Virus record (IMG/VR): IMGVR_UViG_3300012582_000194
Coordinates: 124,001 to 188,000 of that record
Origin: a virus
Length of the DNA stretch: 64,000 bases
Strand: one strand, 5' to 3'
A program made the translations under genes and the position numbers. This document shows positions 2,185 to 62,568 of this stretch, in pieces; the stretch's first letter is position 1, and every line of letters begins with the position of its first letter. The notes beneath the pieces are model-generated. The model ran no database searches. It saw only the letters and a list, made by a program, of their open reading frames with translations, and had not been told where the DNA came from.

Positions 2185-2463
2185 ATGAAGATTAATAGAG
2201 AACATCCGCAAATAAAACTGTTTGTACAGGAAATGATTAATGAAAAAATTCCTTACTTACCCGATAAATTCGAACAAGAAGATTTTATGTTTCTTGTTAT
2301 TGAACAAATGTGGAATAATAATAATTCACCACAATGTGTATCAGCGGATGGTAATGTCGTGGGTGCAAGACGAACTGAATTATTCAAAAAAATATTCGAT
2401 TACAAAAGAATTTACTTAATTGATGAACTAACAAATGATAAACAAGATAAAAACGTTATTTAA
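2185..2463 (+). CDS. Hypothetical protein
   Basis: 92 residues, soluble, with no signal peptide and no recognised motif. It starts 2 nt after the previous stop, and its 3' end overlaps the next gene by 29 nt in another frame, so translation is probably coupled. Confidence 0.65.
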   Translation: MKINREHPQIKLFVQEMINEKIPYLPDKFEQEDFMFLVIEQMWNNNNSPQCVSADGNVVGARRTELFKKIFDYKRIYLIDELTNDKQDKNVI

Positions 2464-2626
2464 AAGTTTTAGCTTTAGTTGTGAACATAGCTTTGTATCA
2501 GATATTCAACTCAGAATTGTTGAATGTACAAAATGTAATAAAAAATATTGGTACTCTTATGGTGATATTTATTCAAAACCTAATAAAATTCAAGAGAGAA
2601 AAAATAAAATAAAACTACTTAGTTAA
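2435..2626 (+). CDS. Small Cys-containing protein with shared C-terminal tail
   Basis: 63 residues. Cys residues at FSCEHSF and VECTKCNKKYW could form a single zinc knuckle. The end, QERKNKIKLLS, is a variant of the basic-hydrophobic tail common in this window. Its last 12 nt overlap the convergent gene at 2615-2980. Confidence 0.6.
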   Translation: MINKIKTLFKSFSFSCEHSFVSDIQLRIVECTKCNKKYWYSYGDIYSKPNKIQERKNKIKLLS

Positions 2627-2980
2627 GTCTTCTATTTTTATTTCTCTTAAAAGAGGTTTCAAGTCTTCATCAATATGTAGAAAAATATTTTCAAGAAGTA
2701 TATGTATCTGTGATGGGACTTGTGCATGATCTCTTCTATCATAAATAAAGAAAATCATTATATCTTGATTTATACTATCAGTTAGATATGAATATTTAGT
2801 CTGTACTTTATATGGAATTTTTTCATATATGAAGTATTCGGAGAAAGTTTCTACATTGTTTATATACTTAAAAGTAATTGCCTTTCTTTTTACAATATCA
2901 TAAAATAATGATGGAACTCTTAATGGAGTTGTTAAGTTTTTTGTATTTTTAAGTTTAGGTTTATTAACATTTTTAATCAT
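2615..2980 (-). CDS. Hypothetical protein with shared C-terminal tail
   Basis: 121 residues, mixed alpha/beta in appearance, no known family. It ends LREIKIEDLTK, matching the KI-E-D-L core of the shared tail with two extra residues. It is convergent with the preceding plus-strand run. Confidence 0.6.
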   Translation of the reverse strand: MIKNVNKPKLKNTKNLTTPLRVPSLFYDIVKRKAITFKYINNVETFSEYFIYEKIPYKVQTKYSYLTDSINQDIMIFFIYDRRDHAQVPSQIHILLENIFLHIDEDLKPLLREIKIEDLTK

Positions 2981-3003
2981 TTATATAATCCTCTTAAATC
3001 TCA

Positions 3004-3516
3004 TTATTCGAGATTTTCTAATTTTTTTAACAATTTGGTAATCTTACCGAGCATACCACACTGCTTTAAACCTTCGTCTATTTTACATCTAATAAACCTT
3101 TCAGGATAACATTTTAAAGGCATATCATCTAAAATATAGAAGTTTTCTATATTATTATCATTAATGTATTTAGTAATTTCAGTGTCTCTCTTCTCAGCCA
3201 TATCTTCAAATAATTCAAGTTTTCCTGAATCAAGCTTTTTATGAAATATGAAAGGAGTATATTCTGTTGGAATATGACTTACCTTATTCCATAAAAATAT
3301 TTCTTGAATTTCGGGAAGAGAAAAGTGGCTTCTCCAATCAGAAGTTAATACAATATTGGTAGGAGTTAATTTTAACGCCTCATTTAATATATTAACACAC
3401 TTAGGATCAAATGGATATGTAGTTCCATTGAACCAATTCTTTTTACTCCTGCTTTGTCTAAATGACCAGCTAGTTGTTATCACATCATCGATATCTAAAA
3501 ATAGAACTATCATCAC
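3004..3516 (-). CDS. HAD-superfamily protein of RNA-repair type
   Basis: 170 residues. HAD motif I is FLDIDDVI near the N-terminus, motif II is LTSDWR in mid-protein, and FYILDDMP is the late Asp-Asp motif, followed by FIRCKIDEGL. The order FLDIDxV, LTSDWR, DD and FIxxxxxxGL matches the small HAD domains annotated as Swiss-army-knife RNA-repair HADs, so an RNA-end phosphatase is plausible beside the RNA ligase at 9099-9680. A degenerate phage-type promoter (AAACTTT with TAATAA) lies upstream. Confidence 0.75.
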   Translation of the reverse strand: MMIVLFLDIDDVITTSWSFRQSRSKKNWFNGTTYPFDPKCVNILNEALKLTPTNIVLTSDWRSHFSLPEIQEIFLWNKVSHIPTEYTPFIFHKKLDSGKLELFEDMAEKRDTEITKYINDNNIENFYILDDMPLKCYPERFIRCKIDEGLKQCGMLGKITKLLKKLENLE

Positions 3517-3600
3517 TAATTATTAACGAAATATAAGTAGGAAAGTTTTGAAAATTAAAGTAGTTTAGCTATATTTAGCTTTAATTTTAATGTAAAATCA

Positions 3601-3628
3601 AAACTAATTGAAAATCTATTTATATAAG
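3601..3628 (+). promoter_or_regulatory. Phage-type promoter, AAACTAA-N15-TATAAG
   Basis: AAACTAA at 3601-3607 and TATAAG at 3623-3628, just ahead of the NADAR gene; a variant of the motif found upstream of most small-protein operons here. Confidence 0.55.
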
Positions 3629-3632
3629 ATAT

Positions 3633-4389: not shown

Positions 4390-4671
4390 ATGGAAACTAT
4401 ATTGAATTACATAGTCAATAATCGCATAGTCAATGTTGATGGTTGGTATTATTGCCAGAAAAATTGCATTGTTAGTGAACATTCGGTAGAACTTTATTTT
4501 GAAAATACAAATTCATCACTTGATTATTATATTATGATTAATTTAAGTAAACCATTTAAGTTTTCATTATATAGAGGTGAAAAAATACAGAAGAAAGCAT
4601 TTCAAAAAGCTTTTTATAAAAAGTTACCAAGAAATTTAAAAATTCAAAAATTAGTAGGGGGTAGATTATGA
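4390..4671 (+). CDS. Hypothetical protein
   Basis: 93 residues with a very basic second half (RGEKIQKKAFQKAFYKKL). The stop overlaps the start of the SerRS-arm gene (ATGATAC), indicating translational coupling. No family recognised. Confidence 0.6.
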   Translation: METILNYIVNNRIVNVDGWYYCQKNCIVSEHSVELYFENTNSSLDYYIMINLSKPFKFSLYRGEKIQKKAFQKAFYKKLPRNLKIQKLVGGRL

Positions 4672-10037: not shown

Positions 10038-10337
10038 ATGGATTTATCTTTCGAAATGTTATATGATGGTATGGAGTTCTCTGCTCGAATAAATGAAATA
10101 CCTTGTGTTGGTAAAATAGCATTGTTCGATGGTGGTGTATATTTGTGTCAAAATGTAAAATCGGGGGCATATTGTGTTCGTAATAAAAGACATGGATATG
10201 ATTTTAGTTGGGCAATATTAACAAAGAATTGTTATAAGAAAACAATAGAACGTGCATTAAAACAAAATCATGTATCTGAGTTTAAAATTTTAAATAGAAG
10301 AAAGAATAGAATAACTGAATTTTATAATAAAAAATAG
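10038..10337 (+). CDS. Tandem paralogue 1 of 4 (SH3-like small protein)
   Basis: 99 residues. Shared layout: (L/M)SFExLxDGMEFSA, then GxxxxFDGGVYLCQN, a Cys-containing loop (AYCVRNKRHGY), FSW, and a basic end RRKNRITEFYNKK. The beta pattern suggests a small barrel; no function is known. It lies 1 nt after the previous stop. Confidence 0.65.
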   Translation: MDLSFEMLYDGMEFSARINEIPCVGKIALFDGGVYLCQNVKSGAYCVRNKRHGYDFSWAILTKNCYKKTIERALKQNHVSEFKILNRRKNRITEFYNKK

Positions 10338-10338
10338 A

Positions 10339-10638
10339 ATGAATTTAACATTTGAGTCATTGCAAGATGGTATGGAATTTTCCGCACATATAGATGGGAC
10401 ACCATGTGAAGGTAAACTTTGTATGTATGATAACCATGTCTTTTTATGTCAAGACAAGAAAGATGGTATTGATTGTAGACGTGACAGAAGACATGGTTAT
10501 CAATTTAGTTGGATAATTAAAGATCCATATAAAAAAACTACAACACTTGATCAAGCATTGAAGATACATGGTGTAACTGGATTTAAAATTCTGAATAAAA
10601 GAAAAGATAGAATAACTGACTTTTATAATCAAAACTAA
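10339..10638 (+). CDS. Tandem paralogue 2 of 4
   Basis: 99 residues, clearly homologous along its length to its neighbours (DGMEFSAHIDGTPCEGK, VFLCQDK, RRHGYQFSW). Ends KRKDRITDFYNQN. Confidence 0.65.
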   Translation: MNLTFESLQDGMEFSAHIDGTPCEGKLCMYDNHVFLCQDKKDGIDCRRDRRHGYQFSWIIKDPYKKTTTLDQALKIHGVTGFKILNKRKDRITDFYNQN

Positions 10639-10643: not shown

Positions 10644-10943
10644 ATGGAATTATCTTTTGAATCATTAACAGATGGTATGGAATTTTCTGCTAACATAGAT
10701 GGAATACCATGTGTTGGTAAAATTGCTGTATTTAGTGGTTTTGTATATTTATGTCAAAATAAAAAATCTGGCGCACTTTGTGGATACGATAAAAGACATG
10801 GTTATAATAGTAGTTGGATAATTAGAAATCCTGCTAAACATGTTCCATCACTATCGGTATCGTTCGCTGAAAACAGAGTAACTGAATTTAAAATTCTGAA
10901 TAAAAGAAAAGATAGAATAACTGAATTTTATAATCAACATTAA
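10644..10943 (+). CDS. Tandem paralogue 3 of 4
   Basis: 99 residues; DGMEFSANIDGIPCVGK, VYLCQNKKSG, KRHGYNSSW. The last 18 codons are nearly identical to copy 2 (ILNKRKDRIT), suggesting recent duplication or gene conversion. Confidence 0.65.
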   Translation: MELSFESLTDGMEFSANIDGIPCVGKIAVFSGFVYLCQNKKSGALCGYDKRHGYNSSWIIRNPAKHVPSLSVSFAENRVTEFKILNKRKDRITEFYNQH

Positions 10944-10944: not shown

Positions 10945-11250
10945 ATGGATTTATCTTTCGAATTGTTATATGATGGTATAGAATATTCTGCTAACATTGT
11001 TGGAATACCTTGTGTAGGTAAAGTTTCTATGTTTGATAACAGTGTTTATTTATGTCAAGATAAAACAGAAGGTTCTGACTGTGGTGTTGATAGAAGACAT
11101 GGTTATGATTACAGTTGGGTGATTGTAGAAAGTTTGGACGATACTCCATTAGAAGAAGCATTGGATTTAAATGATGTTAAAGATTTTAAAATAATAAATA
11201 GAGTAGCTGATAAAAGAAAAGAAAGAATAAATAAATTAAATTTTGACTAA
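10945..11250 (+). CDS. Tandem paralogue 4 of 4
   Basis: 101 residues; DGIEYSANIVGIPCVGK, VYLCQDKTEG, RRHGYDYSW. The tail is DKRKERINKLNFD, intermediate between the FYN ending of copies 1-3 and the LNI ending of the 60-62 kb family. Confidence 0.65.
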   Translation: MDLSFELLYDGIEYSANIVGIPCVGKVSMFDNSVYLCQDKTEGSDCGVDRRHGYDYSWVIVESLDDTPLEEALDLNDVKDFKIINRVADKRKERINKLNFD

Positions 11251-15698: not shown

Positions 15699-16070
15699 AT
15701 GAATTCTGAGTGGGTAGATAATATTGATGTAAATGAAATGATTTATCTTGCATCATTTGATGATGATTTAGGTGATAGACACACACTCGCATTTTATTAT
15801 AAGGATTATTTATTAGTGATTCAAGAAAATGCTTCTGTGATAGTTGTGTGGAAAAATACAGGTTCGCGTTCGAGCGGTATTTATGATTTTGAATGTGTCT
15901 ATAGTTTTAATTATTTTAATAAAGAAGATAAATCAGAATTTTTAAATTTTAAAGAAAAATATGAAAAAATGGTTAAAAATATCACTTTTATATTTAAAGA
16001 CAAAGAAGAAATTGTAGAAAGATTTAAAATTCAAAAAAGAAAATCAACAATTGAAGAATTTTGTAAATAA
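15699..16070 (+). CDS. Hypothetical protein with shared C-terminal tail
   Basis: 123 residues; beta-rich first half, then helical. Ends IQKRKSTIEEFCK, a variant of the shared tail with Phe in place of the first Leu. Function unknown. Confidence 0.6.
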   Translation: MNSEWVDNIDVNEMIYLASFDDDLGDRHTLAFYYKDYLLVIQENASVIVVWKNTGSRSSGIYDFECVYSFNYFNKEDKSEFLNFKEKYEKMVKNITFIFKDKEEIVERFKIQKRKSTIEEFCK

Positions 16071-17024: not shown

Positions 17025-17468
17025 ATGAATAGAGAAGAAATAAATAGTATGAGCAATATTTACTATTTAGAAAACTATATAGACATTGATACATCGGGAC
17101 AAGCTTCTTTAAGAATAACTTACTTCAAAAATGATCACCCAGCATTAGAACAGGAAATATTAGACAGAGATATTGCTATTAGAGGTTGTAAATTAACATC
17201 AATGTTATTTGATGCGGAATGGTACATTTATAAATTATGTAATGTTGTAAATATAGTTGAATTCACAACTCAATTAGATAGCTTTATTATTTATACTCTA
17301 ATAGGTAAATCTGTGATATCTGTTAGAGATAAAGGAGTAGTAAGAAAATTAAATATAGATGAATTATTTTTAGAATACGATTTTATAGAAGACGATAAAA
17401 AATTAAGTGAAAATCAAATAGATAATTTTAATATTGACACTTTAAATATTAATAGTAAGAAATTGTGA
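17025..17468 (+). CDS. Hypothetical protein
   Basis: 147 residues, acidic C-terminus, no known motif. The start codon is only 4 nt after the -10 box, so the transcript would be nearly leaderless, unless an internal start such as 17049 is used. Confidence 0.6.
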   Translation: MNREEINSMSNIYYLENYIDIDTSGQASLRITYFKNDHPALEQEILDRDIAIRGCKLTSMLFDAEWYIYKLCNVVNIVEFTTQLDSFIIYTLIGKSVISVRDKGVVRKLNIDELFLEYDFIEDDKKLSENQIDNFNIDTLNINSKKL

Positions 17469-17836
17469 TAGAGCTTAATAAATTTTATATAATGAATATG
17501 CATTTAATCTACATTATATGTGAGCGATCATCTGTTTGGACTAAAAATAATGCACATATGGGATACAATTTTATTGTTTTGGGTGAAATAATAGATGAAA
17601 ATACTTTTGATGTGCGTAATGCATCAGGAAAAATTATATGGTTCAATACACATGATATGAATTTAGATAAACCAACTAAGAAAGAGTTTGATAATTTTTT
17701 TAATTATATTCATACTAAAGAAAAAGAATTTACTGCGAATTTATATGAATTGATAGAACAGGATTATCCAAACATACTATATAAATTTCCAACATTAAAG
17801 CAAATAAGAGGTTCAAAAATTAAATGTCTTTTATAG
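17465..17836 (+). CDS. Hypothetical protein
   Basis: 123 residues, GTG start overlapping the previous TGA (GTGA). SH3-like beta pattern in the first half (YNFIVLGEIIDENTFDVRN), helical second half. Last 17 nt overlap the convergent peptidase gene. Confidence 0.6.
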   Translation: MIELNKFYIMNMHLIYIICERSSVWTKNNAHMGYNFIVLGEIIDENTFDVRNASGKIIWFNTHDMNLDKPTKKEFDNFFNYIHTKEKEFTANLYELIEQDYPNILYKFPTLKQIRGSKIKCLL

Positions 17837-19773: not shown

Positions 19774-20139
19774 ATGAAAATGAACATAAATGAATTAGAT
19801 TTATCACAATTTGAATATATAGGATCGGAAATTGAGCATAACATTTCAAATGTTGGATTTAAAGATTATTTTATATATGATAATTTATTAGTATTAGTAG
19901 TTCCAAGTGTTATTATTAAATTTTATGACAAAAAACTAAGTATGACACATAGTGAAAATCTTTATATGTTGAATAAAATTTTACATTTAATTACAAAGCA
20001 CATTAATTTTACAGAAAATTATTCAAATATGATGAATAATATAAAACAAACCATAGGACGTAATTATATTACATATGATGCTATTAAATTAGCATATCGT
20101 ATATCATTGAGAAGAAGAAAAATTGATGAATTATTATGA
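19774..20139 (+). CDS. Hypothetical protein with shared C-terminal tail
   Basis: 121 residues, beta then helical, ending LRRRKIDELL. Lies 9 nt after the nucleotidyltransferase and overlaps the next start (ATGA). A regulatory partner role for the nucleotidyltransferase is possible but unsupported. Confidence 0.6.
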   Translation: MKMNINELDLSQFEYIGSEIEHNISNVGFKDYFIYDNLLVLVVPSVIIKFYDKKLSMTHSENLYMLNKILHLITKHINFTENYSNMMNNIKQTIGRNYITYDAIKLAYRISLRRRKIDELL

Positions 20140-26383: not shown

Positions 26384-26384
26384 T

Positions 26385-30109: not shown

Positions 30110-30119
30110 ATTGAACATT

Positions 30120-37914: not shown

Positions 37915-37915
37915 T

Positions 37916-43566: not shown

Positions 43567-43808
43567 TACATTAAATTCTCAATTTTAGTTACTCTATACT
43601 CAGCAGGTGTTTGAAAGTTATTTAGTATCTGCATATCAGTTTTAAATACACTATAAAAATACATATCATTTAAAGTTAATATCATTTCATCATTAGATAA
43701 TAAACATGTATATCTTTCTCCCTTATTAAATAATTTATAATAAGGATAGTTAATAGTGTTAACACATATTAAGTAATCAATACCTCTATATTTAGAAAAA
43801 ACTCCCAT
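43566..43808 (-). CDS. Unrelated small protein in the array, shared tail
   Basis: 80 residues, not homologous to its neighbours (FSKYRGIDYLICVNTINYPY...), yet ends YRVTKIENLM. A useful case: a different body with the same tail inside the array. Confidence 0.6.
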   Translation of the reverse strand: MGVFSKYRGIDYLICVNTINYPYYKLFNKGERYTCLLSNDEMILTLNDMYFYSVFKTDMQILNNFQTPAEYRVTKIENLM

Positions 43809-44245
43809 TACTCTAATAAGTTATCTATTTTTTGTAATCTAATATCATTCTTAATGTCATCGAATAACATAAACTTAAATTGGTCATTAAAAATATTATT
43901 AGATGGTATATTAAGTGTGGAATATATCTCGTTAGATTTACTATAATATAATTTATATTCATCATCACCATCATTGATCGAAAATGAATAACTATTGTGA
44001 ATATCATGTAATCTAGCATATCCTGTAATATCAGTATACCTAACAATAGTTGTTTCTAACATAGATGCCATACCCTTATTTGCTTTATATGAGAATGGAA
44101 AGAACATAACATCAAATCGCTCATTAATTTTAATAATGATATGTCTCAATTTTAACTCATAATCACCACTATCTAATTTAGTATCTATTATAACATTATA
44201 AGTATCGAAGAAGTCTGCTATAGTCTTTCTATCCTTTTTTATCAT
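43808..44245 (-). CDS. Array paralogue C4, shared tail
   Basis: 145 residues; FFDTYNVIIDTKLDSGDY, RYTDITGYARLHDIH, KLYYSKSNEIYSTLNIP, ending IRLQKIDNLLE. Confidence 0.65.
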   Translation of the reverse strand: MIKKDRKTIADFFDTYNVIIDTKLDSGDYELKLRHIIIKINERFDVMFFPFSYKANKGMASMLETTIVRYTDITGYARLHDIHNSYSFSINDGDDEYKLYYSKSNEIYSTLNIPSNNIFNDQFKFMLFDDIKNDIRLQKIDNLLE

Positions 44246-44259: not shown

Positions 44260-44688
44260 TTATAATAGTCTATCTATTTTCTCTACCCTAATATCACTAT
44301 AAATTTCTTTGAATAAACTAAACCCATCACTTTTAGGTATATTAAGTGTAGAATATATCTCATTAGATTTATTATAGTATAAGGAATATAAATTATATTC
44401 ATCATCATTTTCTCTACAATTAAATCCATAACTTCTAATAATATTATGTTTCCTAGCATACCCAGTAATATCAGCATATCTAATAATAGTTATTTCTATC
44501 AATGGTGTATCACCATTACCATACCAAATTGTTGTATGTGGATACATCTTAATATCAAATCTATCACTTACTCTAATAGTAATATCCATCTGCTTTAATT
44601 CATAATCACCATTATCCAATTTAGCATTTATTATACTATTATAAGTATTGAAGAAGCTTGCTACAATCTTTTTATCTCCCGTTAACAT
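44260..44688 (-). CDS. Array paralogue C5, shared tail
   Basis: 142 residues; FFNTYNSIINAKLDNGDY, RYADITGYARKHNII, NLYSLYYNKSNEIYSTLNIP, ending IRVEKIDRLL. First gene of the array after the promoter. Confidence 0.65.
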   Translation of the reverse strand: MLTGDKKIVASFFNTYNSIINAKLDNGDYELKQMDITIRVSDRFDIKMYPHTTIWYGNGDTPLIEITIIRYADITGYARKHNIIRSYGFNCRENDDEYNLYSLYYNKSNEIYSTLNIPKSDGFSLFKEIYSDIRVEKIDRLL

Positions 44689-44964: not shown

Positions 44965-45269
44965 TGACAAAATTCGAACAATATCAAAAGTACTCAAAAT
45001 CTATAGTAGATGAATTTATAGACAAATGCTCTATGAAACATGATTACCTGGATTATTGTAATGCTCTTAGAATAGATAGTAATACATATTATACTTTCTA
45101 TACAGCTAATACTAAAAGCCTTTTGGAATTATCATTTGATACAAATCCACACACTTTATCCAAAGCAAATGTATATACTTCTAAAAGACGTAAGGAAGCT
45201 ACTAAATGGCTAATAACAAATCATCTTAGTTATGAACAATGGTTATTGAAAAATAAAATATCACTATAA
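44964..45269 (+). CDS. Hypothetical protein
   Basis: 101 residues from the ATG overlapping the zinc-ribbon stop. Helical and basic; ends YEQWLLKNKISL. The 3' end of this gene is duplicated near 47085-47117. Confidence 0.6.
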   Translation: MTKFEQYQKYSKSIVDEFIDKCSMKHDYLDYCNALRIDSNTYYTFYTANTKSLLELSFDTNPHTLSKANVYTSKRRKEATKWLITNHLSYEQWLLKNKISL

Positions 45270-45695
45270 TAGATTTTCTATTTTATCTATTCTAATATCA
45301 TTGTTAATATCCTTAAATATCTCTTCCGATCTAAATGGAATAATGTAAGGGATATTAAGTGTAGAATATATCTCATTAAATTTTTCATAATATGAATATA
45401 AATTAAATTTATCATTATTTTCATTACAAGTAAATGCATGAATATTATGAATATTATATTTTCTAGCATATCCCGTAACATCCTTATATCTAACAATAGT
45501 TACTTCCAACAATGGTATATCGCCATTACCATTCCAATTAGCTATATACGGATAAAATTTAACATCGAATCTATCATTTATTTTAATGGTAATATACCTC
45601 TGCTTTAATTCATAATCACCATTATCTAACTTATTATCTATTATACCCTTATAGGTATCGAAGAAGTTTGCTATAACATCACCATTCGTTTTCAT
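45264..45695 (-). CDS. Dispersed paralogue C6 of the 142-aa family, shared tail
   Basis: 143 residues; FFDTYKGIIDNKLDNGDY, RYKDVTGYARKYNIH, YEKFNEIYSTLNIP, ending IRIDKIENLL. Own promoter. Confidence 0.65.
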   Translation of the reverse strand: MKTNGDVIANFFDTYKGIIDNKLDNGDYELKQRYITIKINDRFDVKFYPYIANWNGNGDIPLLEVTIVRYKDVTGYARKYNIHNIHAFTCNENNDKFNLYSYYEKFNEIYSTLNIPYIIPFRSEEIFKDINNDIRIDKIENLL

Positions 45696-47110: not shown

Positions 47111-47539
47111 CTATAATAGATTTTCTATTTTCTCTATTCTAATATCATTAGAGATATTATCGAATATACTGAATAGGGTATTATTCATATTCTTAGGTAT
47201 ATTAAGTGTGGAATATATCTCTTTAGATTTGCTATAATACAGTGAATATAAATTAAATTCGTCATTATCTTTTTGAGATAAAAATCTATAATTATTATAA
47301 ATATCATATTTTCTAGCATATCCAGTAATATCAGCATATCTAATAATAGTTATTTCTAGCATAGGTATTTCATCACTATTAAAATAAGCAAAAAATGGAT
47401 ACAACTTAATATCGAATTTATCATTTATTTTAATAGTGATATATTTATACTTTATTGTATAATCACCATTATTTAACTTAGCATCTATGATACTATTATA
47501 AGTATTGAAGAAGTTTGTTATTTTATAATTTATATTCAT
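47111..47539 (-). CDS. Dispersed paralogue C7 of the 142-aa family, shared tail
   Basis: 142 residues; FFNTYNSIIDAKLNNGDY, RYADITGYARKYDIY, NLYSLYYSKSKEIYSTLNIP, ending IRIEKIENLL. Its 3' flank is nearly identical to that of C6, showing a segmental duplication. Confidence 0.65.
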   Translation of the reverse strand: MNINYKITNFFNTYNSIIDAKLNNGDYTIKYKYITIKINDKFDIKLYPFFAYFNSDEIPMLEITIIRYADITGYARKYDIYNNYRFLSQKDNDEFNLYSLYYSKSKEIYSTLNIPKNMNNTLFSIFDNISNDIRIEKIENLL

Positions 47540-54213: not shown

Positions 54214-54450
54214 ATGAAATATAGTGTGGATGATATTCTAATTTGTAAGAAAGTAGGTTTAGATATACTATTAGGAAAGAAGTTTTCTATAGTAGATATA
54301 TCTGTTGACAATTTTAATATTTGTATTTGTTCTATACAATCTGAAGATTCAATAGAATATCCTATAATGTATTTCCCTGAAACATTAGATGAATATTTCT
54401 ATAATTTACAAGAACATAGAAAAGCTATCATAGACAACCTCCTTTCTTAA
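54214..54450 (+). CDS. Small SH3-like protein, group D, shared tail
   Basis: 78 residues; YSVDDILICKKVG, a beta core, ETLDEYFYNLQEHRKAIIDNLLS. The tail codons for NLLS are the first ACCTCCTTTCT copy in this region. Group D proteins share a GDxL start and a (F/Y)xxxxE(Y/H)RK ending. Confidence 0.6.
   Translation: MKYSVDDILICKKVGLDILLGKKFSIVDISVDNFNICICSIQSEDSIEYPIMYFPETLDEYFYNLQEHRKAIIDNLLS
54437..54447 (+). repeat. ACCTCCTTTCT copy 1
   Basis: Matches the 3' tail of Bacteroidetes 16S rRNA. Lies in the last codons of 54214-54450, 15 nt before the next ATG. Confidence 0.6.
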
Positions 54451-54462: not shown

Positions 54463-54708
54463 ATGAAAATGAAATATATTAAAGTCGGTGATTATTTATT
54501 TTGTATTAAAAGATATAAGTTTGATAATGATACGATTGATTTTTACGTTGGTGAAAAGTGTAAAGTTATAACTAAATGGATTAGTGGAATAACTATTGGT
54601 AAAGCTAAAGATTACGCTTACGGTATTCCTTTTTCTTTAGTAGGAGTTCACCTTTATTTTGAAACAGTTGAGGAACATAGAAAAAAATTAATAGCAAGTA
54701 TTCTATGA
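54463..54708 (+). CDS. Group D small protein, shared tail
   Basis: 81 residues; IKVGDYLFCIKRYKF, VGEKCKVI, ending EEHRKKLIASIL. Start at 54463 or 54469. ATGA overlap with the next gene. Confidence 0.6.
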   Translation: MKMKYIKVGDYLFCIKRYKFDNDTIDFYVGEKCKVITKWISGITIGKAKDYAYGIPFSLVGVHLYFETVEEHRKKLIASIL

Positions 54709-54968
54709 TAGAAATGATTAGTGAATCTGACCAAGAGTATACAAATGGTTATCGAATATCTGCTTGGATAGAATATCCTGTTAGAAGTTATCTATGTGGT
54801 GCAATAAGAATAGAATACTTTTATAACAATGTGAAAAGACATGAATGTATTTTTCCACCTATAGAAGGATATTATTTACCGTATACTGAATTATTAAAGT
54901 TGGCAAAAGATAATGCTCCTAAAAGCGTGAGTGAATTACGAAAGGAGATAATAGAAGACTTATTATAA
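54705..54968 (+). CDS. Hypothetical protein with shared tail
   Basis: 87 residues; YRISAWIEYPVRSYLCGAIR, a different body from group D, ending LRKEIIEDLL. Confidence 0.6.
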   Translation: MIEMISESDQEYTNGYRISAWIEYPVRSYLCGAIRIEYFYNNVKRHECIFPPIEGYYLPYTELLKLAKDNAPKSVSELRKEIIEDLL

Positions 54969-55004: not shown

Positions 55005-55250
55005 ATGAATGATTTTAAAACAGGTGATAAATTATACAGTAATAAACACAATATGTGGTTTACTATAATTTATATTTTTGAAGATATAACAACATCAACG
55101 AATTTACATATAAGAAGTGATGAAAAAGTAAAGGGTATTCATATTCATATAGGTAAAGGAATAAGATATAGTGATATTGGTGTAGAGTATTTAACAAAAG
55201 TTCAATATAAAGCAAAAAGAAGGAATTCTATAATACGCGATTTATTATAA
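55005..55250 (+). CDS. Small protein, group E1, shared tail
   Basis: 81 residues; FKTGDKLYSNKHNMWFTIIYI, YLTKVQYKAKRRNSIIRDLL. Paralogue of the next gene. Confidence 0.6.
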   Translation: MNDFKTGDKLYSNKHNMWFTIIYIFEDITTSTNLHIRSDEKVKGIHIHIGKGIRYSDIGVEYLTKVQYKAKRRNSIIRDLL

Positions 55251-55251: not shown

Positions 55252-55557
55252 ATGGATAAAGAACTTTTCAATTTAAAACCAGGTGATAAGTTGTATAGTC
55301 ATAAGTATGAAATATGGCTTACAATATTTTCTGTATCTACGTGTATTGGATATATTCAAAATAATATATTTACTATGGAGCTTGTTACAAAAAGTGTTCC
55401 TGATAGTGAGTTATATTTTAGTGCAAATTGTAGAGAACGTCTTAATTTAACACTTGCACATATAGGAATTAATGATATAGGATTGGATAAGAAATTCTTA
55501 ACTGAGGTACAATATAAATTTAAAAAGAGGAATGCTATAATAAATGATTTACTATAA
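55252..55557 (+). CDS. Small protein, group E2, shared tail
   Basis: 101 residues; LKPGDKLYSHKYEIWLTIFSV, FLTEVQYKFKKRNAIINDLL. Carries a ~20-residue insertion relative to E1. Confidence 0.6.
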   Translation: MDKELFNLKPGDKLYSHKYEIWLTIFSVSTCIGYIQNNIFTMELVTKSVPDSELYFSANCRERLNLTLAHIGINDIGLDKKFLTEVQYKFKKRNAIINDLL

Positions 55558-55820
55558 TGGAAATAGGAGATATATTAATAGTTAAAAATAAAATAATTAA
55601 AGACGGTAATCTTTATGCTATACCTAAGTATACTAAGGTTATTATTTGGAGTAAATGTAATATGAATAAATTTTATAAAAATAACTCACATATAGCCTAT
55701 GGAATTAAAACTAAAGATACTGCAAGGATACTTACAGATGATGAAATAGCACTTAATTTTTGGACATTAGCTGAATATAGAAAAATTAAAATAGAAGACT
55801 TGATTACAGAATGTATTTAA
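55557..55820 (+). CDS. Group D small protein, extended tail
   Basis: 87 residues; MEIGDILIVKNKI, IPKYTKVIIW, FWTLAEYRKIKIEDLITECI, so five residues follow the usual end. Overlaps the convergent gene. Confidence 0.6.
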   Translation: MEIGDILIVKNKIIKDGNLYAIPKYTKVIIWSKCNMNKFYKNNSHIAYGIKTKDTARILTDDEIALNFWTLAEYRKIKIEDLITECI

Positions 55821-56491: not shown

Positions 56492-56722
56492 ATGGATGAA
56501 GGTGATATATTAATAGTTAAAACTGATATGTTTTTAGGTATACCTAAACATAGTAAAGTTATTATACATAATCGTCATACAACTATAATTAGTAGCTATA
56601 GAATTAATAGTTATATACTTAAATATGGTGATGATTATTCAAGGGTAATTAGTGATAGCGAATTATGTAATTTTTGGACTGCTATAGAATACAGAAAATT
56701 TAAAATAGAAGAACTATTATGA
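56492..56722 (+). CDS. Group D small protein, shared tail
   Basis: 76 residues; MDEGDILIVKTDMFLGIPKHSKVII, FWTAIEYRKFKIEELL. Starts the second small-protein operon. Confidence 0.6.
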   Translation: MDEGDILIVKTDMFLGIPKHSKVIIHNRHTTIISSYRINSYILKYGDDYSRVISDSELCNFWTAIEYRKFKIEELL

Positions 56723-56934
56723 TAGAAGGTGATATACTAATACTTAAATGTGATATGTTTTTAGATATACCTAAGTATACTAAGGTTACTATTTATAGAT
56801 GTTTAACAACAATTAATCGTTGTATAATTGATATTGATAATGGTGCTATGAAAGCTATGATACAAGAAAAAGAATTAAGTTATTTCTGGAAATTAGCAGA
56901 GTATAGACAACATAAAATAAAAGATTTAATATAA
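56719..56934 (+). CDS. Group D small protein, shared tail
   Basis: 71 residues; MIEGDILILKCDMFLDIPKYTKVTI, FWKLAEYRQHKIKDLI. Very close to its upstream neighbour. Confidence 0.6.
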   Translation: MIEGDILILKCDMFLDIPKYTKVTIYRCLTTINRCIIDIDNGAMKAMIQEKELSYFWKLAEYRQHKIKDLI

Positions 56935-57293
56935 TGACTAGTATAGAGCTTATAGAGAAAATGAAAGGATTTAAATATTTAGAAGAAATATTAAATCAAG
57001 AAATAGAAAAAATGAATCGTTTTTTTGCATATGTTATATTAGATAATCAATGGAATCAAATAGAGTTTAGTCATTATAATGTTGATGATAGAAATTGTAA
57101 TAATTATTTAAGTATATACCTAAATTGTTTAATACAAAATGACTGTATGAATGATGACGAATTACCACATATGATTATATTATTAGATTATACTAACGAA
57201 GAATCTTTTAACGAAAAATATCATATCATGTTAATGAATAAGGAGTCTATAATAAAGGCTTATAAGAGGAAGTATATTATAGAGAATGTTTAA
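56934..57293 (+). CDS. Hypothetical protein with tail variant
   Basis: 119 residues, helical, different body; ends KAYKRKYIIENV. TAATG overlap at its start. Confidence 0.6.
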   Translation: MTSIELIEKMKGFKYLEEILNQEIEKMNRFFAYVILDNQWNQIEFSHYNVDDRNCNNYLSIYLNCLIQNDCMNDDELPHMIILLDYTNEESFNEKYHIMLMNKESIIKAYKRKYIIENV

Positions 57294-57305: not shown

Positions 57306-57641
57306 ATGGAAATAAATTTACACATCTCTTACAATTTGGGTATAAACTATAACTATAAAAGAAGTGATACTATAGTAAAAGTTATTGACTATCCTTTGAA
57401 TAAGGGTTTAAATGATAAAGGATATTATATAGATGTTTATAGCTATAATGTATGTAGAGAAACAATTATGGACATATTGAAGCTTGATAATATAAAATAT
57501 ACTACAATTAGAATTATGGCTAATAAGCTTCTAATAAACAATAAATCAACATCAATATTAAAGTATGTAACTGTTTATATTAGTAATATTGATTATTACA
57601 GAACTTGGAATAGAAAAACTATAATAGAAGAACTAATATGA
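57306..57641 (+). CDS. Hypothetical protein with shared tail
   Basis: 111 residues, beta-rich with many Tyr; ends WNRKTIIEELI. Its ATG lies 2 nt after the 16S-tail-like repeat and has no purine-rich leader. Alternative start not evident. Confidence 0.6.
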   Translation: MEINLHISYNLGINYNYKRSDTIVKVIDYPLNKGLNDKGYYIDVYSYNVCRETIMDILKLDNIKYTTIRIMANKLLINNKSTSILKYVTVYISNIDYYRTWNRKTIIEELI

Positions 57642-57871
57642 ATGTTGGAGATATACTAATAGCTAAAGATAATGAATTATTTATAAAAGGGTTATCGAAA
57701 TATGATAAACTTATCATATTAGATAAGTATTCTACATTTTCATTATATAGACTTGATAGCATTAATATGGATGTAAGTATTTTTTCTATGATATTTACTA
57801 AAAGTGAATTAGAATTTCATTTTTGGACATTAGCAGAATATAGAAAACTTATTATAGAAGACTTAATATGA
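57638..57871 (+). CDS. Group D small protein, shared tail
   Basis: 77 residues; MNVGDILIAKDNELF, LSKYDKLIIL, FWTLAEYRKLIIEDLI. Confidence 0.6.
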   Translation: MNVGDILIAKDNELFIKGLSKYDKLIILDKYSTFSLYRLDSINMDVSIFSMIFTKSELEFHFWTLAEYRKLIIEDLI

Positions 57872-58086
57872 AATATGGTGATGTATTAATAGCTAAAGAT
57901 ACAGAATTACCTGGTATATCTAAATATGATAAAGTTGTTATTACTTATATGTATTCTGATAATACTAATTTTTATTATAAAATTGAATGTGACGTGGATA
58001 CTATGATACTTCATGAGAAAGATATACCATATTATTTTTGGACATTATCAGAGTATCGAAAACTTATCATAAAAGATTTAATATAG
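57868..58086 (+). CDS. Group D small protein, shared tail
   Basis: 72 residues; MKYGDVLIAKDTELPGISKYDKVVI, FWTLSEYRKLIIKDLI. The pair with its neighbour indicates recent tandem duplication. Confidence 0.6.
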   Translation: MKYGDVLIAKDTELPGISKYDKVVITYMYSDNTNFYYKIECDVDTMILHEKDIPYYFWTLSEYRKLIIKDLI

Positions 58087-58093: not shown

Positions 58094-58321
58094 ATGTACA
58101 AGAAAGGAGATGTTCTATTATATAAATTGGATAGTAGAGGAATTAAGAAAGGTGAGAGATTCTATATAAAAGATGTCACTATAAGTAGTGGAGGAGGAGT
58201 ATATTACCATGTTTCTGATAAAGGTAGTTATACGTATACATTTACCGATGAAAATATTCATGATAAATTTATTACATTAGAGGAGCATAGAAAACTTATT
58301 ATTAAAGAGATAATAGATTAG
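58094..58321 (+). CDS. Group D small protein, shared tail
   Basis: 75 residues; MYKKGDVLLYKLDSRG, IKKGERFYIKDV, ending EEHRKLIIKEIID. AAGGAGAT inside its first codons is one of few SD-like strings. Confidence 0.6.
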   Translation: MYKKGDVLLYKLDSRGIKKGERFYIKDVTISSGGGVYYHVSDKGSYTYTFTDENIHDKFITLEEHRKLIIKEIID

Positions 58322-58705: not shown

Positions 58706-58742
58706 AATAGTTTAAGTATAAGTGATTCTAAGAAATGATATT

Positions 58743-59063
58743 ATGATTGAAAAAGGAGATATAGTAATATCATATTCAAATGTATATGTTTATTTGAGAA
58801 GTATAGAAAATACAATGGGTGTTATTTATGATTACTTATATATTGCAGAATTTAATTCTACATTTACAGATGTTTCATTATCAACATTAAGAACGTATGA
58901 ATTACGTGATGATAAGTTATCTGATACTGAAATATTAGAATTATCAAAATTTCTATTTAAAACAAAGAAATATATGGAAGTTTCGAGTGCTATAGAATAT
59001 CATGATGTTCCTAATAAATTGATTAATATTAGAGAGAGAAATTTAAAATGGTTATTAGAATAA
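58743..59063 (+). CDS. Hypothetical protein with tail variant
   Basis: 106 residues from the ATG at 58743. MIEKGDIVISYSN start like group D, then a longer body; ends IRERNLKWLLE. Confidence 0.6.
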   Translation: MIEKGDIVISYSNVYVYLRSIENTMGVIYDYLYIAEFNSTFTDVSLSTLRTYELRDDKLSDTEILELSKFLFKTKKYMEVSSAIEYHDVPNKLINIRERNLKWLLE

Positions 59064-59067: not shown

Positions 59068-59298
59068 ATGTTTAAAAAAGTATTCTATTTTAAGGATAAT
59101 ATTAAATCAGAAGTTAACTGTGAATCTATTTTTCATAGTATAATAATAAAATATTTTAATAAGGATATTGAGTTTTATGAAACATCTATAGATAGTTATC
59201 CTTTTGTATATACTGATGCTGGATTATTTGATTTGGCTTATAATAATATTCCAAGAGTTCACATAAAAAGAAAGAAAATAATAGAAGACTTGTTATGA
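59068..59298 (+). CDS. Hypothetical protein with shared tail
   Basis: 76 residues; MFKKVFYFKDNIKSEVN, ending IKRKKIIEDLL. ATGA overlap with the next gene. Confidence 0.6.
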   Translation: MFKKVFYFKDNIKSEVNCESIFHSIIIKYFNKDIEFYETSIDSYPFVYTDAGLFDLAYNNIPRVHIKRKKIIEDLL

Positions 59299-59564
59299 TA
59301 GAGAGAAGATTTAATTCAGGTTTTAAACCAGGTGATAGAGTTAAAGTAAACTATAAGATGGTTAGTAAAGGACAATTACTAACTGTTAGAGATAAAATTT
59401 TAACAGTGAAAGAGGTTAAGCATCACATTAGTCATTATTGGATAGTTTACTTTGTAGAGGAAAATAAATTTTATGAATTGGATAAAGGGTTATTAAATAT
59501 TCTATTAATTAAAGTAGATATTAGAGATGATAGAAGATTAAGAATTAGTTCATTGAAATTATAG
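59295..59564 (+). CDS. SH3-like small protein with tail variant
   Basis: 89 residues; FKPGDRVKVNYKMVSKGQLLTV, a KOW/SH3-like beginning, ending DDRRLRISSLKL. Resembles the opposite-strand family at 59.8-62.6 kb in its GDRV turn. Confidence 0.6.
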   Translation: MIERRFNSGFKPGDRVKVNYKMVSKGQLLTVRDKILTVKEVKHHISHYWIVYFVEENKFYELDKGLLNILLIKVDIRDDRRLRISSLKL

Positions 59565-59819: not shown

Positions 59820-60116
59820 TTAAATATTTAGATTGTTTATTTTAGATAATCTATTATTTAGAGTATTGTTTATTTGGAATATATCTTCAGAGTATTTACA
59901 AATTGACCAACCATAACCATTTGTATCTTGTATAGCGAAATGTGGTGTATAACCTTCTTTGTGAATATACTCTATATTTTTTATAGTTAGAGTATACGGA
60001 TATTTGACTTTATTCATACCGTATATACCACCAGCACAATTTGACCAACTATATGGATATTTTAGTATAGTTACTCTATCACCTGCTTTTAAATCTGCAA
60101 ATTTTAAATAACTCAT
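59820..60116 (-). CDS. Family F protein 1 (GDRVTIL type)
   Basis: 98 residues from the ATG at 60116. FADLKAGDRVTILKYPYSW, KYPYTLTIKNI, HFAIQDTNGYGWSI, ending NRLSKINNLNI. Family F comprises five such proteins; SH3-like beta pattern, function unknown. Confidence 0.65.
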   Translation of the reverse strand: MSYLKFADLKAGDRVTILKYPYSWSNCAGGIYGMNKVKYPYTLTIKNIEYIHKEGYTPHFAIQDTNGYGWSICKYSEDIFQINNTLNNRLSKINNLNI

Positions 60117-60117
60117 A

Positions 60118-60534
60118 TTAGTCAATTAATTTCCATTTTTTAATTTCGAACTGTTTGAATTCTGTAGCTGTATCTTCGGTTATATTAATTTTTCTCCATT
60201 GATAAGTACTGCTATAAATAAACCAAGCCACATCATAGTTATTACCATCAGATACAAGTACATCTATTCCTTCAGGTGGATAAGTATCATAGTTATTGAT
60301 TTCAATATCAATCCATTTAACAATATCTTTTTTAAGGATTTGTTGTTTCTTGTCTTTGATGATAGAGTATGTAGTTCTATAAGGTTGATAGTTTACGTGA
60401 GCATCAACACGTTCATCATCAATATAGAATTCGGGAAGGACTTTTCTAATACCTTCAGGTAAACCAGGTGATTGTTTATAAACCTCTAATAGGATTCTAT
60501 TATCAGGTAGATTATGTGTGATAGTGAAATTCAT
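60118..60534 (-). CDS. DUF551-like C-terminal domain protein
   Basis: 138 residues. The C-terminal half (YPPEGIDVLVSDGNNYDVAW, then WRKINI and KKWKLI) has the pattern of DUF551-type proteins of phages and prophages; the N-terminal half is a beta domain. Function unknown. Confidence 0.6.
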   Translation of the reverse strand: MNFTITHNLPDNRILLEVYKQSPGLPEGIRKVLPEFYIDDERVDAHVNYQPYRTTYSIIKDKKQQILKKDIVKWIDIEINNYDTYPPEGIDVLVSDGNNYDVAWFIYSSTYQWRKINITEDTATEFKQFEIKKWKLID

Positions 60535-60700: not shown

Positions 60701-60701
60701 A

Positions 60702-60995
60702 TTATATGTTTAAGTTCTCTATTCTATTTTTTCTATTAATTAAAATATTGTTTCTTTGAAATAAAAATACAGTTTCACTATTAATAGCCCAACCAAAACC
60801 ATTAGTATCTTTTATAGCAATATGTGGCATCCAAGCATATCTATTATACGTTATATTATCTATCGTTAGTAGATATGGATATTTAACTTTATATCGTTTA
60901 TCTATACCACCAGCTGCACTAGACCAACTATTTGGATAATTTAAGATAGTTACACTATCCCCAACTTTTAAGTCTTTAAAATGTAAATAGTTCAT
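60702..60995 (-). CDS. Family F protein 2
   Basis: 97 residues; FKDLKVGDSVTILNYPNSW, KYPYLLTIDNI, HIAIKDTNGFGWAI, ending INRKNRIENLNI. Confidence 0.65.
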   Translation of the reverse strand: MNYLHFKDLKVGDSVTILNYPNSWSSAAGGIDKRYKVKYPYLLTIDNITYNRYAWMPHIAIKDTNGFGWAINSETVFLFQRNNILINRKNRIENLNI

Positions 60996-61279
60996 TCTTC
61001 AATATTTAAGTTGTCTATTCTATTTTTTCTATCGTTTAGAACATCGTTCTTTTCAAATAGATGATATGTTCTTCTATTAATTGACCAACAATAACCATCT
61101 GTGTCATCTATGGATATAGCTAAATGTGTACCACCACATCCTATATCACATATTTTATTTATAATAAAGGTGTATGGATATTTTAACTTTCCATTATTAA
61201 ACCAATCCCATAAAGGAGGTTCACATAGAATAGTTACTCTATCGCCTACTTTTAAATCGGTGCAATTTAAATCTATCAT
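60992..61279 (-). CDS. Family F protein 3
   Basis: 95 residues; CTDLKVGDRVTILCEPP, KYPYTFIINKI, HLAISIDDTDGYCWSI, ending NDRKNRIDNLNIEE. ATGA overlap with copy 2. Confidence 0.65.
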   Translation of the reverse strand: MIDLNCTDLKVGDRVTILCEPPLWDWFNNGKLKYPYTFIINKICDIGCGGTHLAISIDDTDGYCWSINRRTYHLFEKNDVLNDRKNRIDNLNIEE

Positions 61280-61530
61280 TTATTTGAATTCTTTTGAATA
61301 ATTCTTTCTAACTTTTTAAAATTTTTTACAATAGTTCTTTCTACTTGAGATAATGCGGTATCAATTTTAGAATCATCCATGTTATCTACAACTTGATGGT
61401 AGGTAAGTTCATCTATATTATCAGAAGGCTTTTTATACATTCGTTTAAATAGATTTATTTGTGGTTCTGTACATTGGAATAGTAATCTCTTTAGAGTATC
61501 CTTTCCAAATTTAGCTAATGTTTGATTCAT
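61276..61530 (-). CDS. Helical hypothetical protein
   Basis: 84 residues, all-helical, with two basic ends (KFGKDTLKRLLFQ, NFKKLERIIQKNSNK). Sits between family F members but is unrelated to them. Confidence 0.55.
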   Translation of the reverse strand: MNQTLAKFGKDTLKRLLFQCTEPQINLFKRMYKKPSDNIDELTYHQVVDNMDDSKIDTALSQVERTIVKNFKKLERIIQKNSNK

Positions 61531-61792
61531 TTAAGTTGTTTATTCTATTTTTTCTATCATTTAAAACATTATTTTTTCCAACTAGATTGTAATTAATTTC
61601 ATCAATTAACCAACTACGATTATCATTATCTTTAACAAGTATTCTCGTTTCATTAAAAGTATTTACACGTAATATATATTCTATAATAAATGTATAAGGA
61701 TAAACTAATACATTTCCATAGAAAGTAGGTTTGTTTGGGATAGTTACTCTATCACCAATTTTTAAATCATTAATAAAGTTTGAATATGTCAT
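61511..61792 (-). CDS. Family F protein 4
   Basis: 93 residues; INDLKIGDRVTIPNKP, VYPYTFIIEYI, ILVKDNDNRSWLI, ending NDRKNRINNLNESNIS. The extra codons overlap the start of 61276-61530. Confidence 0.65.
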   Translation of the reverse strand: MTYSNFINDLKIGDRVTIPNKPTFYGNVLVYPYTFIIEYILRVNTFNETRILVKDNDNRSWLIDEINYNLVGKNNVLNDRKNRINNLNESNIS

Positions 61793-61793
61793 A

Positions 61794-62273
61794 TTAAAAT
61801 AGTCTAACTTCGTCTATTGGAACTTTATAGAAATCTTTTAGAATACCTTTTACAATTAAATCAAATTTTCTATTACCACCATAAAGTTCTATATCAGTTT
61901 TTTGATTTAAAGACGTAGTATCAATACCCATTCTTCTTGGATGTAAATAGAATTTCTTTTCTTGTATAAGATATTCCATAACGATAACACCATTCTTTCT
62001 ATATTCTTTTACAATATAAGGCTCTTCACCTTCATCAGTTATTTCTTCATCTCTTTCTGTAATAACTAAGTCTTTGATTAATTTAATGAAATAATTTTTG
62101 AAGGATTCTTTCTCATTATCTTCAACAACAACTTCTTCTGTTTTAGGCACATCTTTAGAATTGATGTTTTGTAATTCAGATATAACTTGTTTTATTGCAA
62201 GTTTAGCAGTTTCTAAATCACCATCTTCAATTCTTTTAATAGATATATTTAATATTTTAGTTAGATGTTTCAT
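61794..62273 (-). CDS. Hypothetical protein, N-terminus loosely packaged-type
   Basis: 159 residues; MKHLTKILNISIKRIEDGD lacks the Phe-Glu core, so capsid targeting is doubtful. An acidic middle (ERDEEITDEGEEPY) precedes a beta-rich end. Overlaps family F copy 5 by 17 nt. Confidence 0.55.
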   Translation of the reverse strand: MKHLTKILNISIKRIEDGDLETAKLAIKQVISELQNINSKDVPKTEEVVVEDNEKESFKNYFIKLIKDLVITERDEEITDEGEEPYIVKEYRKNGVIVMEYLIQEKKFYLHPRRMGIDTTSLNQKTDIELYGGNRKFDLIVKGILKDFYKVPIDEVRLF

Positions 62274-62568
62274 TGTTTATATTATTTATTTTATTTTTTC
62301 TATTTTCAATAATAGAATTTCTTGTGAAGATTTCTGCATTATCATTAATTATTGCCCAACCAAAACCATTAGTATCTTGTATAGCTAAATGAGGTAAGTA
62401 TTGCTTATTTCTATTTTGGTGAGATACACTTTTTATAGTTAATGTATATGGGTATTCAACTTTATCAACACCATATGTTCCACCATCAAGATGTGAATAT
62501 ACGTATGGTTCTTTTAGTATAGTTACTCTATCACCTGGTTTTAAGTCTATAAAACTTAAATAGCTCAT
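62257..62568 (-). CDS. Family F protein 5
   Basis: 103 residues; FIDLKPGDRVTILKEPYVY, EYPYTLTIKSV, HLAIQDTNGFGWAI, then ENRKNKINNINNETSN. Confidence 0.65.
   Translation of the reverse strand: MSYLSFIDLKPGDRVTILKEPYVYSHLDGGTYGVDKVEYPYTLTIKSVSHQNRNKQYLPHLAIQDTNGFGWAIINDNAEIFTRNSIIENRKNKINNINNETSN

Follow-up and report, generated by a model that had tools for sequence, protein, structure and literature searches.

A short C-terminal peptide on many otherwise unrelated small proteins of huge phages looks like an address label

Results

A shared peptide at the C-termini of small proteins

The 64-kb stretch of viral DNA analysed here (IMG/VR record IMGVR_UViG_3300012582_000194, positions 124,001 to 188,000; hereafter the window) carries dozens of small open reading frames (ORFs) whose products end in the same peptide, a tail of about nine residues with the pattern R-K-x-[KIR]-I-x-x-[LI]-[LI] that stops 0-6 residues before the C-terminus. 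The window is 100% identical to LR756504.1, an uncultured phage of 636,363 bp, where it maps to 582,371-636,363 and 1 to ~10,008, spanning the ends of the record. LR756504 corresponds to the 636-kb Mahaphage genome of Al-Shayeb et al. 2020, a study that predicted Bacteroidetes hosts for its five genomes >634 kb (PMC7162821). It encodes a T4-type major capsid protein, a portal and an S77 prohead-protease-like domain, the last falling below the Pfam cut-off in this genome. The record is without annotation, and our own ORF calls (at least 40 aa, greedy non-overlap) gave 974 ORFs.

A 12-column weight matrix was built from the C-termini of LR756504, scores above 7 bits being taken as a pass; its consensus is x-x-x-R(97%)-K(61%)-x-[K38 I28 R27]-I(98%)-[E D N K]-[N D E]-[L73 I15]-[L39 I20]. 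Scores are bimodal, with 150 of the 974 ORFs above 7 bits and 140 of them above 12. Controls seldom pass: out-of-frame ORFs do so in 3 of 1183 cases, internal stretches in 10 of 2829, shuffled tails in 12 of 2922 and N-termini in 5 of 974, the N-terminal windows, unlike the C-termini, scoring at background. Weight matrices trained on the same genome are partly circular, for which reason a fixed core, R-xxx-[IL]-xx-[ILV] within the last 16 residues, was applied as well; it ends 162/974 ORFs as against 16/927 internal stretches and 19/1183 out-of-frame ORFs. Within the window, 55 of 157 selected ORFs pass 7 bits, none of 109 out-of-frame ORFs does so, and up to six further ORFs have clipped or divergent forms.

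A sequence-only reading of the window had proposed about 55 tailed small proteins and quoted seven tails; the count agrees, and all seven were located at their ORFs. The profile search that it proposed separates tails from out-of-frame, internal and shuffled controls across the genome, and the tail is rare in random AT-rich ORFs, as the out-of-frame set shows. Chance endings in AT-rich ORFs are thus ruled out, and the observation is confirmed and is larger than first claimed. Tagged ORFs are short, with a median of 99 aa in LR756504; they are densest from ~580 kb to 80 kb across the origin and are present in nearly all 20-kb bins. The number of residues between motif and stop, from 0 to 6, is represented by 65, 37, 23, 13, 7, 3 and 2 tails, respectively.

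With the tail removed, the tagged ORFs of LR756504 fall into 105 phmmer components, 85 of them singletons. The description of the bodies as otherwise unrelated therefore holds genome-wide, while several paralog families, the 142-aa, SH3-like and KVGDRVTI families, contribute within the window. An hhalign comparison of the 142-aa family with an SH3-like family aligns the tail only. Pfam detects a CCA-adding enzyme (a weak tail match), DUF7695 and little else among 143 tagged LR756504 proteins, and Pfam, PHROGs and PADLOC together assign almost no function to this set. In relatives, the tail of a riboflavin kinase is located past the kinase domain, and Pfam tallies of tailed candidates, which are without member names, list PhoH-like, NUDIX and L7/L12 C-terminal domains. 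Homologs in other genomes were found for 4/150 tagged LR756504 proteins versus 260/824 untagged ones, and the 142-aa family has no match in phage or IMG/VR records except LR756504's own. Four tandem tagged paralogs at window 10038-11250 share an LCQN...HGY..SW body; related sequence begins ~380-aa proteins in relatives.

The signal lies in the peptide

At R, K, E and L the tail uses codons as the genome at large does (AGA 79% for each; p>0.1 except for AGG, in slight excess at R, p=0.006), whereas ATA encodes the conserved Ile in 67% of tails versus 43% in the genome and 46% in matched context. The earlier observation of variation at synonymous sites stands for R, K, E and L, apart from the small AGG excess, with the ATA bias at Ile as the exception. 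Downstream of the stop codon of tail genes there is no sequence information. In 31 tails whose gene is followed by none within 100 nt, or by a convergent neighbour, the consensus is the same (R 97%, I 94%, L 87%); these include the gene at 30111-30407, for which a tail without a following gene had been reported. Relatives at 36-44% GC retain the peptide with other codons, CGT, GAC and CTC among them.

One could suppose that a translation-coupling or termination signal in the DNA encodes the peptide incidentally. Overlap with the preceding gene is indeed commoner among tail genes than among the rest (46-55% vs 19-29%), and the ATA preference points the same way. Against this, the tail does not depend on a downstream gene, R and L codons are at genome usage, nothing is conserved past the stop, and the peptide is kept with other codons in the relatives and at shifted offsets. 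Since the tail persists without a following gene, the signal is in the peptide rather than in translation coupling, and the nucleotide explanation, already contradicted, has next to no probability in our estimate. A DNA-level recombination site or repeat was rejected because codons are free and no information extends past the stop.

The tail in related phages

Relatives were gathered by capsid-protein searches. Besides LR756504 (W01), we refer to LR745206 (W02, 635 kb), LR756502 (W03, 642 kb), IMG/VR 3300049793_000366 (G003, 508 kb), LR756501 (W04, 735 kb) and LR756500 (W05, 462 kb); the W04-W07 set also takes in Lak-B5 and Tenacibaculum phage pT24. Sampling covered part of W04-W06 and of the IMG/VR fragments.

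W02, W03 and G003 carry a variant tail, R-[DE]-x-[K]-[IL]-x-x-[IL]-[LG]. The fixed core ends 182/983, 188/1028 and 149/700 of their ORFs (internal frequency 1-2%), so that four huge phages, W01 included, have it at the end of 17-21% of ORFs. A further fragment, G004, is clearly enriched (16/165 vs 1/151) and another, G013, weakly so; the majority of the remaining IMG/VR fragments are too short for a call. By the fixed core, no enrichment was found in LR756501, LR756500, Lak-B5 or pT24, genomes that were partly sampled. When W02 and W03 are compared by reciprocal best hits, 29/35 and 20/23 cases retain the core, with body identity at ~44%, compared to 23/377 for other pairs. This retention, together with the tails that have no downstream gene, supports the earlier proposal that selection acts on the peptide.

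Tailed genes, capsid-targeting-like genes and a late-promoter-like motif

The tail-bearing phages have a second recurrent motif, MK[YH][LI]K-x-[FY]E, at the N-terminus of unrelated proteins. Its MK[YH][LI]K-x-[FY] portion resembles the T4 capsid-targeting sequence (PMC9958956). The motif begins 43, 69, 80 and 36 ORFs in W01, W02, W03 and G003, respectively, yet motif and tail occur on the same ORF just 1, 0, 1 and 0 times, where 6.7, 7.8, 8.6 and 3.8 are expected (in total 2 vs ~27); both cases look like false positives by eye.

The two classes also differ upstream. The sequence [TA]ATATATA precedes 51/61 capsid genes and 52/58 prohead-protease genes, for which reason we call it late-promoter-like. 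It lies before 24/29, 35/47, 38/49 and 23/29 of the operons with the capsid motif in the same four genomes (74-83%), compared to 8/84, 12/78, 9/66 and 4/49 of the tail operons (8-15%), a difference with p between 1e-10 and 1e-13 in each genome. The rarity of the late-promoter-like motif before tail operons suggests that the tail marks a non-late, presumably non-virion, class of protein.

Other tails in other lineages

LR756501 has a C-terminal tail of its own, DPYGEExW, on 24/643 sampled ORFs (for example L098:9642-13452, L089:15582-16127 and L016:11314-11850); the string also occurs after the N-terminal motif in some of its proteins. LR756500 has a third, NADDFGFxDN, on 10/460 ORFs of ~7 families (L017:11601-17016, L110:8758, L113:3382 and 12613, mostly with a capsid-targeting-like N-terminus). 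Comparable bodies carry the tail of each lineage: mini-capsid proteins (about residues 502-552) end in RKRKIENIF in W02, RKDKIEKIL in W03 and DPYGEEDW in W04; mini-scaffold repeats in RKKKIKNLF in W02, RETKIDELL in G003 and DPYGEEDW in W04; and mini-proteases in RDSKIDEIL in IMG/VR L142 and DPYGEENW in W04. This suggests that the tags are interchangeable and lineage-specific.

Structure of the tail

In AlphaFold2 models of the SH3-like family the protein ends in a confident helix formed by the tail (pLDDT 86-92 over the final blocks); in the 142-aa family a low-confidence tail helix follows a low-confidence stretch. The tail residues R, I, L and L, at i, i+4, i+7 and i+8, share one helical face, and Pro and Gly are depleted immediately before the tail. 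Arginine occupies its position in 97% of tails and lysine is essentially absent from it, which suggests that a guanidinium contact, and not charge alone, would be read. A membrane anchor is disfavoured, since the Arg is not replaceable by Lys and E, D or N follows the Ile.

Clp machinery and capsid-like bodies

LR756504 encodes three ClpP homologs, one of them a hit that runs across a stop codon; a ClpC-like ATPase that has the VGF loop and no N-domain; a ClpX-like protein; and ClpS. The VGF ClpP-docking loop is kept in the Clp ATPases of W01-W03. All clearly tail-enriched genomes (W01, W02, W03, G003 and G004) encode ClpP; W01-W03 and G003 also have a Clp ATPase and ClpS, one tally of ClpS adds G004, and ClpS is absent from W04-W07. 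A cognate Clp for a degron or an adaptor docking tail is thus present, and host Clp would also serve.

Among small capsid-like ORFs, 15 of 30 distinct ones are tagged, against a background of 12.3%; most belong to one orthologous family, and about four families are independent. Tagged proteins are not enriched in fragments of larger proteins generally (12/504 vs 81/2203). A 65-aa ORF of W01 (LR756504 415901-416098; L009:15901-16098) matches capsid residues 86-130 and ends with two tandem tail-like motifs. Near these residues the capsid profile aligns weakly with T4 gp23 106-135, and the Lit-triggering Gol peptide we take to be gp23 93-122. Gol is located in gp23 and activates Lit (PMC9712102). 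A conserved capsid-like tagged protein of 233-261 aa (L034:17176-17907; orthologs in L145, L150, L161, L176, L182, L193, L201, L205 and L065) lies ~5 kb from the capsid gene and, in W02, directly after a 316-aa methylase-like ORF.

Features of the window and the phage Clp genes

Table 1. Tailed ORFs, ORFs with the N-terminal motif and tRNA genes of the window, and the Clp set of LR756504. Positions are in the window unless LR756504 is named; bits are 12-column weight-matrix scores.
Position	Strand	Length (aa)	C-terminal form	Bits	Remark
2435..2626	+	63	ERKNKIKLLS	12.1	
2615..2980	-	121	LREIKIEDLTK	13.6	
4390..4671	+	93	PRNLKIQKLVGGRL	12.1	weaker
6455-7922					eight tRNA genes, Leu, Ser, Cys only
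10038..10337	+	99	RRKNRITEFYNKK	16.3	
10339..10638	+	99	KRKDRITDFYNQN	16.0	
10644..10943	+	99	KRKDRITEFYNQH	15.8	
10945..11250	+	101	KRKERINKLNFD	21.9	
15699..16070	+	123	KRKSTIEEFCK	17.2	
17465..17836	+	123	IRGSKIKCLL	16.1	
19774..20139	+	121	LRRRKIDELL	19.0	
20575-21198	-				N-terminal motif
21205-21882	-				N-terminal motif
23358..23663	+	101	KRIDKIAGLIEE	13.8	weaker
23706..23915	+	69	IRKIKIDDILE	19.7	
23912..24121	+	69	CRKIKINQLL	18.9	
24121..24342	+	73	LRKNKIDELL	23.4	
24339..24563	+	74	IRKNKIQELL	21.7	
24560..24856	+	98	LRKKKIQNLI	19.5	
24858..25250	+	130	RRKKRINNLV	22.3	
25443..26063	+	206	RERRLSIINEL		clipped; relaxed match only
26063..26383	+	106	FRKKIIEEI		clipped; relaxed match only
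26370..26618	+	82	SRSYKIDNLLKD	17.8	
26618..26839	+	73	IRKRRIKKLL	21.6	
30111..30407	+	98	LRKSRIEELL	25.5	next gene on opposite strand
32581-32967	+				N-terminal motif
33013..33360	+	115	NRRKICDELSV	12.2	weaker
33435..33716	-	93	IRQHKIKGIIE	12.9	
33713..33979	-	88	IRSKKLESFI	3.0	divergent; relaxed match
35137..35406	+	89	NRKERIQNLSL	21.0	
36390..36797	+	135	KRISIINDII	14.3	
36940..37224	+	94	LRIDIIEDLL	18.6	
37886..38257	+	123	RRDKIINDLI	15.4	
38426..38827	+	133	LRKETIEELL	19.8	membrane protein
38824..39216	+	130	LRKETIEELL	19.8	membrane protein paralog
39627-39959	-				N-terminal motif
39986-40189	-				N-terminal motif
40470..40841	+	123	KRKNFIDNF		clipped; relaxed match only
41050-41733	-				N-terminal motif
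42306..42731	-		IRAEKIERLL	17.6	142-aa family
42731..43156	-		IRIEKINELL	19.7	142-aa family
43156..43566	-		LRKSKIENLI	22.7	142-aa family
43566..43808	-	80	YRVTKIENLM	19.1	unrelated ORF within 142-aa cluster
43808..44245	-		IRLQKIDNLLE	17.1	142-aa family
44260..44688	-		IRVEKIDRLL	17.8	142-aa family
45264..45695	-		IRIDKIENLL	19.5	142-aa family
47111..47539	-		IRIEKIENLL	20.3	142-aa family; predicted tail helix after low-confidence stretch
47560-47808	-				N-terminal motif
54214..54450	+	78	HRKAIIDNLLS	25.2	
54463..54708	+	81	HRKKLIASIL	15.0	
54705..54968	+	87	LRKEIIEDLL	24.6	
55005..55250	+	81	RRNSIIRDLL	16.7	
55252..55557	+	101	KRNAIINDLL	16.6	
55557..55820	+	87	YRKIKIEDLITECI	23.6	SH3-like family
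56492..56722	+	76	YRKFKIEELL	23.4	SH3-like family
56719..56934	+	71	YRQHKIKDLI	22.7	SH3-like family
56934..57293	+	119	KRKYIIENV		clipped; relaxed match only
57306..57641	+	111	NRKTIIEELI	21.9	
57638..57871	+	77	YRKLIIEDLI	23.6	SH3-like family; confident helix in model
57868..58086	+	72	YRKLIIKDLI	21.3	SH3-like family
58094..58321	+	75	HRKLIIKEIID	18.6	SH3-like family
58722..59063	+	113	RERNLKWLLE		doubtful; relaxed match only
59068..59298	+	76	KRKKIIEDLL	22.4	
59295..59564	+	89	RRLRISSLKL	10.8	weaker
59820..60125	-	101	NRLSKINNLNI	17.4	KVGDRVTI family
60702..60995	-	97	NRKNRIENLNI	22.5	KVGDRVTI family
60992..61279	-	95	DRKNRIDNLNIEE	21.6	KVGDRVTI family
61511..61792	-	93	DRKNRINNLNESNIS	21.1	KVGDRVTI family
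62257..62568	-	103	NRKNKINNINNETSN	20.2	KVGDRVTI family
LR756504 291825-292514					phage Clp set
LR756504 370660-371439					phage Clp set
LR756504 ~146269-146691					phage Clp set
LR756504 534497-536443					phage Clp set
LR756504 37587-38744					phage Clp set
LR756504 200028-200312					phage Clp set

Discussion

The sequence-only reading had taken the tail for an address, docking or degradation signal. Of these, address or docking best fits a peptide that belongs to one expression class, is nearly exclusive of the capsid motif, is conserved between orthologs and is replaced between lineages; degradation through a free-carboxylate C-degron is disfavoured. We give a chance slightly better than even to the tail being a short C-terminal docking or address tag with one common partner. 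It would act as an amphipathic helical turn, R-x-x-x-[I/L]-x-x-[I/L]-[L], in which the invariant Arg and two or three aliphatics lie on one face, bringing dozens of unrelated non-late, non-virion phage proteins to that partner. Because the tag sequence differs among related phages, the partner is probably phage-encoded, and it may be clade-specific. The tagged class would then be separate from the proteins sent to the capsid by the T4-like N-terminal motif.

Several results weigh against a docking tag of this kind. A PDB search with the tail profile returned no solved protein at E<10, and Foldseek on models of two tagged bodies gave no confident match. The W04 and W05 tails both co-occur with the N-terminal motif (8/24 for W04, against 71/643), and the DPYGEExW and RxxxIxxLL tails may for this reason not be equivalent. 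As to the phage's own Clp machinery, an unproven candidate for the partner, to which tagged proteins could be adaptors (bait plus docking tail) or substrates, the link is one of co-occurrence within a single clade and follows phylogeny, and another genome, G009, encodes both ClpP and a Clp ATPase yet shows few tails or none. Phage ClpS was rejected as the tail receptor: by eye, the NDD and His usual in N-degron adaptors are kept in it, and its presence follows the clade.

The main rival to a docking tag is a C-terminal degron by which phage or host Clp would remove early and middle proteins at the onset of the late phase. The confinement of tails to non-late genes is what such a degron would predict, and the distribution of ClpP, Clp ATPase, VGF loop and ClpS set out above is in its favor, as is the low-confidence, possibly flexible stretch before the tail of the 142-aa family. 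We nevertheless judge it unlikely, at perhaps one chance in a handful. The 0-6 residues that come after the motif indicate that a free carboxylate is not read (an ssrA-like degron, which would sit at the extreme C-terminus, was rejected on this ground); the depletion of Pro and Gly before the tail and the ordered SH3-like helix joined to the fold make a poor start for an unfoldase; the ClpS and ClpP pattern is confounded with phylogeny; and a degron on 15% of ORFs would cost much. Less probable still is a signal for virion packaging that would act at the C-terminus as the capsid-targeting sequence does at the N-terminus. Redundant signals might well be mutually exclusive, as tail and motif are, some tagged bodies look like capsid or prohead-protease pieces, and the W04 and W05 tails do accompany the N-terminal motif; but the late-promoter-like sequence is rare before tail operons and absent in all ten checked members of the capsid-like tagged family, which adjoins the methylase-like ORF and not the capsid gene. 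We hold to similarly low odds the idea that ancestry alone is shared, the C-terminus being the last recognisable part of one fast-evolving family. Weakly similar GDxVxI/SH3-like starts common to several families, and the lineage specificity of the tagged proteins, would accord with it. Membrane proteins and capsid fragments among the bodies, the enzyme and ribosomal-protein domains among relatives' tailed candidates, and the differing predicted folds of two families that hhalign joins by the tail only are hard to derive from one ancestor, and a near-invariant R and I amid divergence elsewhere would still require function.

The capsid-mimic ORFs raise a more specific version of the docking tag, which we regard as improbable and offer as speculation. 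The tagged proteins may form an arsenal of adaptors whose bodies bind host, rival-phage or defence proteins and whose common tail hands the bound protein over to a single phage machine, for example the phage's own Clp protease. Some bodies might imitate pieces of the capsid protein, including the stretch aligning with what we take to be the Gol region of T4 gp23, and different Mahaphage lineages could run the scheme with different tail sequences, in a manner comparable to the poxvirus ankyrin/F-box proteins.

In the literature we found no earlier report of a phage C-terminal tag, or of a proteome-wide terminal tag on non-virion phage proteins, and the tail has the look of a molecular address label, of a kind previously undescribed, for non-particle proteins. 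It provides a sequence-based entry to hundreds of small genes of the largest known phages that otherwise resist annotation, and predicts for them a gene class (non-late, not packaged) and a common partner. That partner, once found, would reveal protein sorting in huge phages or the control or weaponising of proteolysis; the lineage-specific replacement of tags suggests co-evolution of tag and receptor.

Encapsulin cargo-loading and bacterial-microcompartment encapsulation peptides are short terminal amphipathic peptides by which unrelated proteins dock to one shell protein. The tail, too, is a short amphipathic terminal peptide on unrelated proteins; it differs in having far more clients (about 150 ORFs) and in needing no linker, and it is not known to dock to a shell. 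The ssrA and MuA C-degrons and the ClpX-binding tail of SspB are short C-terminal peptides read by Clp unfoldases. The tail shares their form and occurs in phages that encode Clp parts; unlike them it is not tied to the last residue, its sequence is unlike ssrA, and degradation is a candidate outcome only. Import into the phage nucleus of Chimalliviridae likewise sorts a subset of phage proteins selectively during infection, in another group of phages; the parts of that account available to us report no comparable short tag (PMC11087766). The T4 capsid-targeting sequence is also a short terminal peptide that sets the destination of unrelated phage proteins (PMC9958956), and a motif like it is present in the tail-bearing phages on other proteins; the tail is C-terminal instead of N-terminal, would be helical (RxxxIxxLL), belongs to non-late genes and is nearly exclusive of that motif. 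Poxvirus ankyrin/F-box (PRANC) proteins join variable N-terminal bodies to a shared C-terminal module that docks to one machine (PMC9414399, PMC4353913). The tagged proteins resemble them as a large viral arsenal of varied bodies with a shared C-terminal module, which here is ~9 residues rather than a domain and is carried by bodies that are not one repeat family.

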